Assembly (NCBI RefSeq): GCF_002729955.1
Contig: NZ_PBYA01000032.1
Location: 124,001 to 188,000 of the forward strand
Origin: Salinisphaera sp.
GTDB lineage: Bacteria; Pseudomonadota; Gammaproteobacteria; Nevskiales; Salinisphaeraceae
DNA length: 64,000 nucleotides
Direction: 5' to 3'
How positions within the stretch are numbered: position 1 is the first letter of the stretch; every line of letters begins with the position of its first letter. Shown piece by piece: positions 28,713 to 33,256 of the stretch. The notes under the pieces are model-generated. The model saw nothing but the letters and a program-made list of their open reading frames with translations. It did no database searches and was not told the origin of the DNA. The translations under genes and the position numbers were made by a program.

Positions 28713-29534
28713 ATGGCCGACTCTTCATTTTCTGCTGCCCCTCGCCCGCTGATGGGACGCTTCGGGATGTGTCTGAAAGCCGCACGCCTGGTGGGTTTGC
28801 TGCTGCTGGGCATCGTGTTGCTGCCCTGCGTGCCGCTGATTGGCCAGCGCTCCTGGAAACTGGTGCGCTGGTGGCATGGCCGCATGCTGCGCGTGTTGAA
28901 TGTGGCCCTCGAGATCGATGGGGAACTGCCCGCCGGGCCCGTGCTGATCGTGGCCAATCACTGTTCGTGGCTGGATATCATCGTGCTCGGCCACGCATTC
29001 AATGCCTCGTTCGTATCCAAGGCCGAGATCGGCGGCTGGCCCCTTGTGGGCGCGTTCGCGCGCGCGGCCGGCACGCTGTTTCTGACCCGCGGCGCGGGCA
29101 AGACCTCGGAAACCTCGGAGAAAATCCGCGCCGTACTCGACGCCGGCCGCTCGGTTCTGTTCTTTCCCGAAGGCACCACCACGGCCGACCCCATGCCCCG
29201 ACGTTTTCATGCGCGCCTGTTCGCGGCCGCCATCGAGGGCGAATATCCGGTGCTGCCAGTGGCTCTGCGCTACTGCGACGACACCACGCCGGCGGATATG
29301 CACCACGCACTCGCGCCGTGGGTCGACGAAGCCGCGCTCGGGCCCCACTTCAAGGATCTGTTCCGGGTTCACGACATGCGTGCCCAGGTGCGCCTGTGTG
29401 CCCCCATCGACCCGCGCGGCTATGACCGCCGCAGTCTGGCCGAGGCCAGTTATCTGGCGATCAGCCATCGCCAGTCGATGGCCGCGATCAGGGCTCAGCG
29501 TCGGGCAATGTCCCAGTCGCGCTCAGCGGCTTGA
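28713..29534 (+). CDS. plsC: 1-acylglycerol-3-phosphate O-acyltransferase (PlsC family)
   Basis: Membrane-associated acyltransferase of 273 residues that makes phosphatidic acid from lysophosphatidate. A hydrophobic segment (about 24-45) precedes the HX4D catalytic motif in ANHCSWLDIIVL (His/Asp around 90-95); VSKAEIGGWPLVG, FLTRG and FFPEGTTT are the further family motifs. A related role on lyso-ornithine lipids (OlsA-like) cannot be excluded. Its 3' end overlaps the convergent phaZ by 47 bp. Confidence 0.88.
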   Translation: MADSSFSAAPRPLMGRFGMCLKAARLVGLLLLGIVLLPCVPLIGQRSWKLVRWWHGRMLRVLNVALEIDGELPAGPVLIVANHCSWLDIIVLGHAFNASFVSKAEIGGWPLVGAFARAAGTLFLTRGAGKTSETSEKIRAVLDAGRSVLFFPEGTTTADPMPRRFHARLFAAAIEGEYPVLPVALRYCDDTTPADMHHALAPWVDEAALGPHFKDLFRVHDMRAQVRLCAPIDPRGYDRRSLAEASYLAISHRQSMAAIRAQRRAMSQSRSAA

Positions 29535-30471
29535 GCGTACCGTCGGGCGGCAGGTTCAGGGCCGCGAAGTAGTCCTGACCGTCGGTGCCGTCGTAGCGAC
29601 GCTCGTTGATGAAGCGCTTGATCACGGCAGCGCTTTCGTTGGCACGCACCAGCAGAAACAGATGCCCGCCGCCGCGCACGATGTGCAGATAGGACTTCGG
29701 AATCAGCCAGTAAAGCAGGCGAATATTGACCAGCGGCATGACCGGGTCGTCGTCGCCGCCCATGATCAATGTCGGGCAGCGCAGCCGGTGCAGACGATGC
29801 ACGCTGGTCCAGCCCAGCCCCGCGATCAGCTGGTTGAAATAGCCGCGCGTCGAGGGATCGGGCGAGAAGTGTCCATCGCGGCCCAGCAATTCGGGTCGGC
29901 GACGCATCAGCCCGCCATACAGCGCCGGCGCAAGCTGGGCGAGGTTTTCATTCTTCTGGAAACGACGGGCGTTGGTCAGGCGCTTGAGCACGTTCGAGCG
30001 GGCCGGCAGCGCCAGCATGCCGGGTGAGGTGGCCGCCAGAATCAGCCGGTTGGTACGTTCCGGAAAGTCGAGCGCGAACTGCTGCGCCAGCGCCCCGCCC
30101 CAGGACACCCCGGCGATATTGATCGGCATGTCGTAGCCGAGCCGGTCGAGCAGCCGGGCCGACAGGCGCGCCAGCCAGCGAAAACGGTGGGGCACGTTCA
30201 ACGCCGGCGAATCGCCCGAGCCCGGGACGTCGAACACGATCACTTCGACGTCGTCGAGGGCGTTGACCAGTGGCAGCGTCATATCGAGATTCGCGCCGAT
30301 ACCGTTGAATACGAGCATCGGCCGGCCGCGTCCGCGGCGCACGCCCACGCGCAGCTCTACGCCGTCGACGTCGACGGACTCGACCTGCATCCTCGTGCGC
30401 CGGCGCAGTACGCTCAAATTGGGCGGCAGACTGCGGCGGGGCGTGTCTTTATCAGCGACCACTGCGCTCAT
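29488..30471 (-). CDS. phaZ: Poly(3-hydroxyalkanoate) depolymerase, intracellular
   Basis: Alpha/beta hydrolase of 327 residues resembling the Pseudomonas intracellular medium-chain PHA depolymerase. NGIGANLD forms the oxyanion region, GVSWGGALAQQF holds the nucleophile Ser123, GGDDDPVMPL the acid and RGGGHLFLL the His. It would mobilise stored polyester at the granule surface. The ATG at 30471 is preferred over a longer reading. It is the third gene of a minus-strand unit after phaC and an inactive-looking paralogue, 101 bp downstream of the latter. Confidence 0.85.
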   Translation of the reverse strand: MSAVVADKDTPRRSLPPNLSVLRRRTRMQVESVDVDGVELRVGVRRGRGRPMLVFNGIGANLDMTLPLVNALDDVEVIVFDVPGSGDSPALNVPHRFRWLARLSARLLDRLGYDMPINIAGVSWGGALAQQFALDFPERTNRLILAATSPGMLALPARSNVLKRLTNARRFQKNENLAQLAPALYGGLMRRRPELLGRDGHFSPDPSTRGYFNQLIAGLGWTSVHRLHRLRCPTLIMGGDDDPVMPLVNIRLLYWLIPKSYLHIVRGGGHLFLLVRANESAAVIKRFINERRYDGTDGQDYFAALNLPPDGTLKPLSATGTLPDAEP

Positions 30472-30572: not shown

Positions 30573-31421
30573 CTAGAACGTACTATTTTGATCGGCGGCA
30601 CTGATCGCAACCTTAGACTCGAGGAACTCGTCGAGCATGCGAACCACCTCGTCGGTGCGTTCGAGCACGAACCAGTGGCCCCCGCCGCGTATGATCTCCA
30701 GGCGTGCCTGCGGCAACAGCAACGCCAGCACCCGCGAGTTCACCGTGGGTACGATCGTGTCGTCGTCGCCGGCGAGTACCAGGGTCGGCACGTTCAGCCG
30801 ATGCAGCCAGCGCAGGCTGCTGAAACCGGTCAGCGCATAGATTTGCGCGGCATAACCACGGCGCGTCGGGGCCGTCGCCCGATTCATGGCGGTCGCGATC
30901 TGGCGGCACTCGTCGTTGCGACGCCCGCCGAAGACCGTTCTCGCCTGTTCGCCATCGGGTGCCACACGACTCAGCGCGCCCGGGCGCGCAAGCCGCACCA
31001 GACTGGCCAGCCGGCCGGGAAACATCAGCTGTCCGCTCGCTGTCGCCGCGAGCACCAGTCGGCGTACCCGGTCGCCCTGCGAGTGCGCGAACTGCTGCGC
31101 CAGCAGCCCGCCCCAGCCGATGCCCATGACGTCCACGGGTTCGCGCAGGCCGTAATGGTCGAGCAGTTTCGCGAGCAGCGCCGCCAGCGCGGGCATACGG
31201 CGCATGCGCACGACCTCGGCGGACGTACCCACGCCGGGCAGGTCGAAACACAACACCGGTCGGCCCAGCGCGGCCGCGAATTCGTTGAGAATATCGAGAT
31301 TGGCGACGAAGTCGTTGCACAGCAACAAGGGTACGCCCTGCCCCGAGATGAACGCGGTATGCAGGCGCTCGCCGTCGAGCGCCACATGATCGATATACGC
31401 CGCCTCAGACTTGACGGACAT
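30573..31421 (-). CDS. PhaZ-like alpha/beta hydrolase lacking the nucleophile serine
   Basis: Protein of 282 residues, clearly paralogous to the adjacent phaZ: LDGERLHTAF, FDLPGVGTS, LLAQQFA, LVLAATASG, LAGDDDTIVP and RGGGHWFVLE align along the length. In place of GVSWGGA it has GIGWGGL (codons GGC ATC GGC TGG GGC), so the catalytic Ser is Gly102, and the oxyanion motif NGIGANLD reads NDFVANLD. The acid and His are kept. It is therefore expected to be inactive as a hydrolase but well maintained. The start overlaps the phaC stop by 17 bp, so it is translated with the synthase; a granule-binding or regulatory role is plausible. Confidence 0.82.
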   Translation of the reverse strand: MSVKSEAAYIDHVALDGERLHTAFISGQGVPLLLCNDFVANLDILNEFAAALGRPVLCFDLPGVGTSAEVVRMRRMPALAALLAKLLDHYGLREPVDVMGIGWGGLLAQQFAHSQGDRVRRLVLAATASGQLMFPGRLASLVRLARPGALSRVAPDGEQARTVFGGRRNDECRQIATAMNRATAPTRRGYAAQIYALTGFSSLRWLHRLNVPTLVLAGDDDTIVPTVNSRVLALLLPQARLEIIRGGGHWFVLERTDEVVRMLDEFLESKVAISAADQNSTF

Positions 31422-33111
31422 AACGCCCCGGCGCCGGCTCGATCGGCTCGTGGGTCTCGTCGCCGTAGGCGGTGGGGGCATCGATGCGCTCGCCGCCGTG
31501 GCACTCGGCCCAGCGTAGCCAGGCCGGCCACCAGGAGCCTGTCTGCTCGCGCGCACCGCGGCGCCAGGCCGCGGGATCGAGGCTGTAATCGTCGTTGACG
31601 TAGAACCGCAGGCTGTCGTCGCCCGGCGGACACAGTATCGACTGTACATGCCCGGCCGAGCCCAGCACGAAGCGCATGTTGGTACGAAACATCTGCATCG
31701 AACGGTAGCAGGCCTGCCAGGGCGTGATGTGATCGCGGGCGCCGGCGACCACGAACACGTCGCGGTCGATCGCGGCCATGTCGACGCTGACGCCATCGAT
31801 GGCGAAATCACTGCCGCGGCGTAGCAGGTTGCGCCGATAGATCATGAGCAGATCGGCATGCAGGGCCGCGGGCAGACGGGTGGTATCGCTGTTCCAGTAG
31901 AGCACGTCGAACGCCGGCGGCTCGTTGCCGAGCACGTAGTTGTTGACCACGAAATGCCAGATCAGGTCGTTCGGGCGCAGCCAGGCGAAGGTACGCGCCA
32001 TGTCGGCGCCGTCGAGCACCCCGGTAAACCGTGAACGCGCCAGCGCGGCGGTTACGGCCGCGTCGTCGGCCACCCGTGCCAGGCGCCGGCTGCGCGGCGA
32101 ATCGAGCATGGTCACGAACAACGACAGACAGGACACCTTGTTCTGCTCGCCGCGCCCGGCCAGCCAGGCCAGCGTCACGGCTGCGGTCAGACCGCCGGCA
32201 CAGGCGCCCATGAGCTTGACCGGCTGTTCGCCGCAGATAGCACGCACGATATCGATCGCCTCGGCCGTGGCGCGCACGTAGGCGGCCAGATCCCAGTCGC
32301 TCTGGGTGGCGGTCGGATTGCGCCAGGAGATGGCGAACATCTGCTGACCGCAGTCGAGCGCATGGCGCACGAAGCTCTTCTCGGGCGACAGGTCGATCAC
32401 GTAATACTTGTTGATCTGCGGCGGGCAGAACAATACCGGCTGGGCATCGACCCGGGCGGTGCGCGGGCTGTACTGGATCAGCTCGAAGATCTCGTTGCGA
32501 AATACGACGGCGCCTTCGGTGGCAGCGATGTTGCGCCCGACCCGAAATGCGGTGGTATCGACCTGGCGCGGCAAGCCGCGGTTGGTGCGAATATCTTCGA
32601 GCAGGTGTCGAATGCCGCGCAGGATAGACAGTCCCCGCGTATGCGCGGCCGCATCGTAGAACCCCGGGTGGGTCGCGAACAGATTGGTGGGCGCGCCGGC
32701 GGCCACCAGATGCTCGGCCACGAACAACAGACGACGACGCTGGTCGGGGCTGATGCGCAGGCCGTGAACGAGTTCGAGTAGCGCGCTCGACCAGGCCAGA
32801 TAGCCCTGGAGCAGGCGCCGGAACGCGGGGTTGTCCTGCCAGGCGGCATGGGTGAAGCGCCGATCATCGGGCGCGGGGCGCAACTTGGAACGCCCCAGCG
32901 CGATCCGCGTCATCTCCAACGACAGCGAGGCCTGGGCACGCCCCAGCGCGACGGGATGCAGTGCCAGCACCCGCAGCAGTTCGCCGCCCGAGGACAACGC
33001 CTCGCCCCAGCGCGAGCCGACAAAGGCCTGTGCGCCGTTGAGATCGCGCAGGGCCCGCGGCGAACTATCGCTGGCACGGGTGATGTCGGTATCCAAAGCG
33101 GTTGCGTTCAT
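31405..33111 (-). CDS. phaC: Class II poly(3-hydroxyalkanoate) synthase
   Basis: PHA polymerase of 568 residues, the class II length, which joins medium-chain 3-hydroxyacyl-CoA into storage polyester on granules. The lipase-like box is LMGACAGG with the nucleophile Cys, as in all PhaC; AGARDHITP holds the catalytic Asp and GSAGHVQSIL the His. PPQINKYYVIDLSPEKS and WRNP are further conserved parts. The start is taken at 33111 (MNATAL). First gene of a unit with two PhaZ-like proteins. No phaD, phaF or phaI is visible nearby. Confidence 0.93.
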   Translation of the reverse strand: MNATALDTDITRASDSSPRALRDLNGAQAFVGSRWGEALSSGGELLRVLALHPVALGRAQASLSLEMTRIALGRSKLRPAPDDRRFTHAAWQDNPAFRRLLQGYLAWSSALLELVHGLRISPDQRRRLLFVAEHLVAAGAPTNLFATHPGFYDAAAHTRGLSILRGIRHLLEDIRTNRGLPRQVDTTAFRVGRNIAATEGAVVFRNEIFELIQYSPRTARVDAQPVLFCPPQINKYYVIDLSPEKSFVRHALDCGQQMFAISWRNPTATQSDWDLAAYVRATAEAIDIVRAICGEQPVKLMGACAGGLTAAVTLAWLAGRGEQNKVSCLSLFVTMLDSPRSRRLARVADDAAVTAALARSRFTGVLDGADMARTFAWLRPNDLIWHFVVNNYVLGNEPPAFDVLYWNSDTTRLPAALHADLLMIYRRNLLRRGSDFAIDGVSVDMAAIDRDVFVVAGARDHITPWQACYRSMQMFRTNMRFVLGSAGHVQSILCPPGDDSLRFYVNDDYSLDPAAWRRGAREQTGSWWPAWLRWAECHGGERIDAPTAYGDETHEPIEPAPGRYVRQV

Positions 33112-33256
33112 AGGAAAACGGCTCCAAACCATGCTCGCGGTATGCCACGGGGCTGCTGCAGGCCGCCGGGCCGGCGCTGTCTCACAGGCCGATGCGAGCG
33201 CGAGCGCTGGAGATGGTTACAATGCCTATGGATCGCCACCCAAGGCAACTCGCTCT

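Follow-up and report, generated by a model that had tools for sequence, protein, structure and literature searches.

The phaC locus and the P1 gene

The analysed stretch of Salinisphaera sp. DNA (64,000 nucleotides, here called the window) carries a three-gene block on the minus strand, in which phaC is followed by a gene that we call P1 and then by phaZ (Table 1). As far as the list of open reading frames of the window shows, the genes flanking this block lie on the opposite strand. A promoter scan of the locus found none, and terminator matches were at the level of shuffled sequence. The 3' end of phaZ overlaps by 47 bp (window 29488-29534) with that of a plus-strand open reading frame (28713-29534), which looks acyltransferase-like by eye.

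Table 1. Window positions of the genes and active-site features of the phaC-P1-phaZ block.
Feature	Position	Strand	Remarks
phaC, PHA synthase, Cys lipase box GACAGG intact	31405..33132	minus	alternative start at 33111
phaC end / P1 start overlap, 17 bp	31405..31421	minus	P1 ATG within PhaC tail ...GRYVRQV
P1, nucleophile-less PhaZ paralogue, 282 aa, ATG start	30573..31421	minus	ORF; Abhydrolase_1 81.6 bits; TIGR02240 178.6 bits
P1 oxyanion loop NDFV, altered (PhaZ: NGIG)	31305..31316	minus	
P1 Gly102 codon GGC at nucleophile position (GIGWGG)	31116..31118	minus	Gly in 14/14 orthologues
P1 catalytic-acid codon Asp221, retained	30759..30761	minus	14/14 P1
P1 catalytic-His codon His249, retained	30675..30677	minus	14/14 P1
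phaZ, Ser-type PHA depolymerase homologue	29488..30471	minus	TIGR02240 276.6 bits > cut-off 250.6
phaZ Ser codon TCC (GVSWGG)	30103-30105	minus	

The P1 product scored well above the PF00561 (Abhydrolase_1) cut-off of 25.8 bits and is an alpha/beta hydrolase by profile. On TIGR02240, the equivalog model of mcl-PHA depolymerases, it stayed below the curated cut-off, which the adjacent PhaZ exceeded. The preliminary description of the locus had stated that P1 aligns with the phaZ product along its length and that it overlaps phaC by 17 bp; the alignment showed 37% identity over 262 aligned columns (E 2e-51), and the overlap is exact. A C-terminal tail (NERRYDGTD..DY...) was seen in PhaZ and was absent from P1 in the eight genomes compared, four of which have a PhaZ without Ser. 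The window's phaC product matched the class II synthase model best and the class I model second, and lay below both cut-offs.

The active site of P1

The catalytic triad of Pseudomonas putida PhaZ is Ser102/Asp221/His248 (PMC12504323), and the residue numbering of P1 agrees with it. The nucleophile motif reads GIGWGG in P1 and GVSWGG in PhaZ, and the oxyanion motif reads NDFVANLD and NGIGANLD, respectively, while Asp221 (in GDDD) and His249 (in GGGH) are both kept in P1. All of these features had been reported from the single window, and they extended to the whole set of orthologues: residue 102 was Gly in 14 of 14, always with a GGN codon (GGC, GGG or GGA); position 37 in the oxyanion loop was Asp, Glu or Asn in all 14 P1 proteins, compared with Gly in 30 of 32 Ser-type PhaZ; and neither Asp221 nor His249 was lost in any P1.

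The set of 32 Ser-type PhaZ combined nine proteins encoded by the second gene in this family with 23 outgroup rows. Among the 28 columns invariant across this set, position 102 was the only one altered in every one of the 14 P1 proteins, and 16 were unaltered in all 14, Asp221 and His249 included. The retention of Asp and His is suggestive rather than decisive, because 55 of the 264 gapless columns of the P1 alignment (21%) are invariant anyway. No invariant replacement nucleophile was seen at the P1 elbow. A lid cysteine, C172, was considered as a substitute and rejected: every one of the 13 Salinisphaera P1 proteins has it, and the P1 of G082, a genome from another genus of the family, does not. 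Given the chemistry of this hydrolase family, P1 is not able to work as a usual Ser hydrolase.

Conservation, gene order and origin of P1

Orthologues of P1 were found in 13 out of 14 Salinisphaera genomes and in one (G082) out of three Salinisphaeraceae genomes from other genera, with identities reaching down to 42%. A search with the P1 model at E <= 1e-25 found nothing in the genomes G083 and G084, which belong to one further genus of the family, and P1 is thus not universal in the family. Each of the 14 orthologues has phaC on one side and a second PhaZ-like gene on the other; in G082, too, the three genes stand in this order, GIGWGG coming before GVSWGG. Thirteen of the Salinisphaera genomes carry phaC over the cut-off together with P1 and PhaZ; in the 14th (G007, 85% complete), phaC (PhaC_N over cut-off), P1 and PhaZ were all not found. 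The Cys box of PhaC was GACAGG in 13 of 13 Salinisphaera and AACAGG in G082. The preliminary description had proposed checking whether Gly102 is fixed in orthologues lying between phaC and a phaZ-like gene, which it is in 14 of 14, and had pointed to Ser-bearing orthologues as counter-evidence; these were looked for and not found, every orthologue having Gly.

With starts taken nearest to the aligned query start, the overlap between phaC and P1 was exactly 17 bp in all 13 Salinisphaera genomes and 4 bp in G082. The P1 ATG falls inside TAT-GTC, two codons of the conserved C-terminal PhaC sequence APGRYVRQ, so the conservation of the overlap is partly dictated by PhaC itself. The overlap had been put forward as an argument against a random pseudogene, and it is indeed kept in 13 of 13, but for this reason its evidential weight is below that first estimated.

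In a pattern-based search of 84,980 species, 10 of 69 candidate stretches were confirmed, and each was an orthologue. G009, G013 and G082 were not among them and the window's own genome may be left out, so the search does not prove absence elsewhere. A contig titled Endozoicomonas sp. G2_2 (L063) has the Salinisphaera operon and matches G011, which is placed in Salinisphaera; the title looks wrong.

P1 and PhaZ formed one clade each, with 14 rows each and SH-aLRT values of 96 and 99, and the inner topologies of the two clades matched closely. In this quick tree the order of duplication relative to the outgroups is not firmly resolved, and the P1 of G082 lies on a long branch. The simplest history would start with a single duplication that preceded the split of the two Salinisphaeraceae genera, after which Ser became Gly once on the P1 stem and PhaZ changed later.

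Outside this gene pair, the Ser nucleophile was present in 26 of 26 PhaZ matches from other genomes in a phylum sample of 398 genomes. All 25 rows at order and class level had it as well, namely 24 from other families (one of them distant) and a third copy from G082. These counts refer to the best 30 candidates per genome in the order search and the best six in the phylum and class searches, and second copies may be missed. The class-level TIGR02240 search gave matches in four of 369 genomes.

Selection on P1

ML codon analysis, with a single omega per data set, gave values of 0.112-0.116 for P1, 0.085 for phaC and 0.073 for phaZ across 13 Salinisphaera genomes. In a six-genome clade with Ser-type PhaZ the values were 0.074 for P1, 0.048 for PhaZ and 0.065 for PhaC, and in a four-genome clade with Ser-less PhaZ (G010, G006, G008 and G002) they were 0.128, 0.087 and 0.107, respectively. 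The rise in omega is no sign of specific decay because it is common to PhaC. Pairwise Nei-Gojobori values for G002 and G008 were 0.089 for the Ser-less PhaZ, 0.264 for P1 and 0.127 for PhaC, of the same order of size as the ML values for near pairs. We preferred the ML values because the pairwise method approaches saturation when pairs are distant (dS about 1).

Relaxed selection had been named beforehand as evidence that would speak against a conserved pseudoenzyme. No sign of it was found, the single-omega estimate for P1 being about 0.11. The claim that P1 is a conserved pseudoenzyme and not a random pseudogene agrees with the invariant Gly, the fixed place after phaC and the strong purifying selection. 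P1 has lost an essential residue and the loss is fixed under purifying selection, as is expected of a pseudoenzyme, and from its conservation it follows that P1 should be functional. The loss of an essential residue is also what a decaying pseudogene or a sequencing error would produce, but chance or error is excluded by the presence of Gly in all 14 orthologues; with the open frames and low omega, such an origin is extremely improbable.

Neighbouring PhaZ proteins without Ser

The PhaZ adjacent to P1 itself lacked the Ser nucleophile in five out of 14 genomes. The residue was replaced by Ala in G012 (L025) and G010 (L026), and by Gly in G002 (S. japonica; L027), G008 (L028) and G006 (L029). 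These five genomes have a phaC operon in which both PhaZ proteins are Ser-less, and a Ser-type PhaZ occurs in the other nine. Asp and His were retained in all five Ser-less PhaZ, and the oxyanion Gly was changed to Thr in all five; Thr or Ala also occurs at this position in the Ser-bearing PhaZ of G001 and G009. Both copies are Ser-less in G010 (Salinisphaera sp. Q1T1-3), where we also noted a 380-aa open reading frame (L085) that is class III PhaC-like, with 146.9 bits on TIGR01836 (below the cut-off of 365.3) and an elbow, HGWGGGG, showing no Cys or Ser by eye.

On a tree of PhaC, P1 and PhaZ built without the elbow columns, the Ser state of PhaZ needs two changes, or three if Ala and Gly are counted separately. 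The Ser-bearing G009 and G001 fall between the species with Ser-less PhaZ, on starred branches. Two losses of Ser, or one loss and a regain, would fit these data equally. In four of the five double-Ser-less genomes, the start codons chosen give an overlap of 1-4 bp between P1 and the PhaZ-like gene; in G012 the two genes are 66 bp apart.

These genomes bear on the idea that P1 is solely a regulator of PhaZ, acting as a decoy, or as a partner in a dimer, in competition with active PhaZ for the polymer. The two paralogues are encoded in one gene block, their trees match closely and nine genomes have a Ser-type PhaZ. However, PhaZ itself has no Ser in the remaining five, and in the four-genome Ser-less clade (G012 is outside this estimate) both P1 and PhaZ are constrained, with omega values as given above. 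Because P1 persists where PhaZ has no Ser, a role solely in modulating PhaZ hydrolysis is quite improbable. Of the original reading of P1, the conserved pseudoenzyme is supported, whereas regulation of hydrolysis by PhaZ is disfavoured as the sole role, the neighbour being Ser-less in five of 14 genomes.

P1 and PhaZ might also form a hetero-complex that serves as a structural or regulatory subunit of PhaC, hydrolysis being dispensable in the second subunit. The two changes in the Ser state of the second gene on the elbow-free tree (two losses, or a loss and a regain) are consistent with this, as are the selection and most of the fold residues kept and the short P1/PhaZ-like overlap in four of five double-Ser-less genomes. 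However, contact covariation would need more than 14 sequences and the structure models are single-chain, and we give this arrangement a low probability.

Predicted fold of P1

The AlphaFold2 model of P1 (pLDDT 79.7, pTM 0.83) showed a PhaZ-like fold with a poorly resolved lid at about residues 134-170. Gly102 was placed at the nucleophile elbow, formed by the turn that links strand 96-101 to helix 103-114. A model of the Ser-less PhaZ of S. japonica was of low confidence (pLDDT 68.8) and was left out of the argument.

In a Foldseek search of the PDB, the best match to P1 by E-value was 8ynv, the intracellular PHB depolymerase PhaZ of Bacillus thuringiensis (TMq 0.71, about 20% identity). Its S102A mutant, 8ynw, was also among the matches, and since the structure of this mutant was solved, a nucleophile-less PhaZ is able to fold. 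The loss of the nucleophile is man-made in 8ynw, whereas in P1 it is natural. The structural neighbours of P1 also included the C-C hydrolases DxnB2 and BphD. In the C-C hydrolase family, His performs part of the chemistry.

Other PHA genes in the genus

None of the 14 Salinisphaera genomes had a match over the cut-off to PF06850, with a near miss in G010 (24.7 bits against 27), or to NF050089, which gave sub-threshold matches in six of 14. PF10503, of the extracellular type, was weakly over the cut-off in three of 14 (G001, G009 and G012), so an alternative depolymerase is possible in the double-Ser-less G012. Genome completeness is only 87% for G006 and 81% for G008, so the absence of a gene there may reflect missing sequence. 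Generic alpha/beta hydrolases occur in Salinisphaera as weaker matches, and weak PhaC_N matches were seen at L099-L103. The phasin family PF09361 was over its cut-off in 13 of 14 genomes, so PHA granules are likely; the phasin family PF05597 was found in none of the 14.

According to PMC12504323, intracellular degradation of mcl-PHA appears specific to Pseudomonas, so even for the PhaZ next to P1 the substrate is assumed. When phaZ is lost in P. putida strain U, PHA rises and is held at the higher level (PMC3918157), which makes selection for a weakened depolymerase plausible. Such weakening would explain the lost cutting but not why the protein was kept, and this is a further indication that the PhaZ fold has a second function.

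P1 might also be an enzyme that works without a nucleophile, a reading absent from the preliminary description and the main rival to the one we prefer. The His249-Asp221 dyad, with the space at Gly102, would activate water or the 3-hydroxyl end of the polymer, and the reaction could be hydrolysis, transesterification (chain transfer) or another 3-hydroxyacyl reaction. The conserved Asp and His in all P1 and all five Ser-less PhaZ speak for it, as do the five operons with both PhaZ proteins Ser-less in a genus with no PF06850 or NF050089 match over cut-off, and the presence of DxnB2 and BphD among the structural neighbours. However, the oxyanion Gly37 is changed to Asp, Glu or Asn in P1 and to Thr in the five Ser-less PhaZ, no new invariant nucleophile appears at the elbow, and C172, the only Cys invariant in the 13 Salinisphaera P1, is missing in G082. 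On balance we consider such an enzyme unlikely.

A proposed function for P1

We favour, with modest confidence, the reading that P1 is a non-hydrolytic partner that binds PHA or the granule and is made together with PhaC. It is supported by the presence of P1, which follows that of phaC (13 of 14 genomes have both and G007 has neither), and by the constraint on P1 (omega 0.128) even where PhaZ is nucleophile-less. Against a purely binding role is the fact that no orthologue has lost Asp221 or His249, since binding alone would not require them, although 21% of the gapless P1 columns are invariant in any case; against a granule partner is the phasin that 13 of 14 genomes already have. The overlap dictated in part by PhaC and the lack of a P1 match in G083 and G084 also count against this reading. 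The loss of Ser, the conservation, the gene order, the selection and the predicted fold are results of the analysis, whereas co-transcription, ligand binding, a granule location and the partnership with PhaC are inferences.

As a binding partner, P1 may have arisen and may work as follows. PhaZ would have been duplicated before Salinisphaera split from the other P1-bearing Salinisphaeraceae genus, and the copy adjacent to phaC would have lost its nucleophile once, by Ser to Gly on the stem. What was maintained would be an alpha/beta hydrolase that has its lid and ester pocket but no nucleophile, made from the phaC mRNA by way of the overlapping genes. With its old PhaZ pocket it could hold chains of PHA, or 3-hydroxyacyl ligands, on the granule surface and leave them uncut, and P1 could thereby support or tune the synthase or the granule through chain-end protection, scaffolding of PhaC or sensing of the polymer.

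A wider and rather speculative proposal is that Salinisphaeraceae have a PHA system with Ser-free PhaZ-fold proteins in which a His-Asp dyad uses the hydroxyl end of the polymer or water for chain transfer or remodelling, the operon of some species having no Ser-type depolymerase.

Comparison with known systems

The literature that we searched, which covered few subscription papers, gave no report of a natural nucleophile-less PhaZ, no paper pairing PHA with pseudoenzymes and no catalytically inactive PHA depolymerase with a Ser/Gly nucleophile change. A search for alpha/beta-hydrolase pseudoenzymes and the nucleophile gave a sole match, on endocannabinoids by its title. In the parts accessible of the literature on PHA or hydroxybutyrate in Salinisphaera, PMC11165706 included, nothing was found on the phaC-P1-phaZ genes. 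Pseudoenzymes of the alpha/beta hydrolase fold are already known generally, and the natural Ser-less PhaZ appears to be the new element.

The usual account of PHA storage is a PhaC-PhaZ cycle. The operons reported here form a natural series, beginning with a Ser-type and a Ser-less copy and ending with both copies Ser-less. Along it the proteins are constrained although the cutting residue has been lost, a loss that is either tolerated or favoured. They make a non-hydrolytic granule role of PhaZ-fold proteins testable, as well as PHA mobilisation in species without a Ser-bearing form of the depolymerase families examined. A natural PHA binder that does not cut might aid polymer production.

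Compared with the Pseudomonas-type mcl-PHA PhaZ (TIGR02240; P. putida KT2440), P1 has the lid, Asp and His in the same aligned places, and the Pseudomonas phaZ adjoins phaC, as P1 does. P1 is unlike the KT2440 protein in having Gly for Ser102, an altered oxyanion loop, a TIGR02240 score below the cut-off (178.6 against 250.6) and a second PhaZ beside it. Natural alpha/beta-hydrolase pseudoenzymes include the neuroligins, the NDRG proteins and the plant GID1 receptor, in which the fold was kept, a catalytic residue was lost and binding was gained. We know of none of this type that acts on PHA, and P1 differs from them in keeping both Asp and His. With the phasins and the PhaC partner subunits PhaE and PhaR, whose fold is unrelated to that of P1, it may share the job of a granule or synthase partner encoded with phaC.
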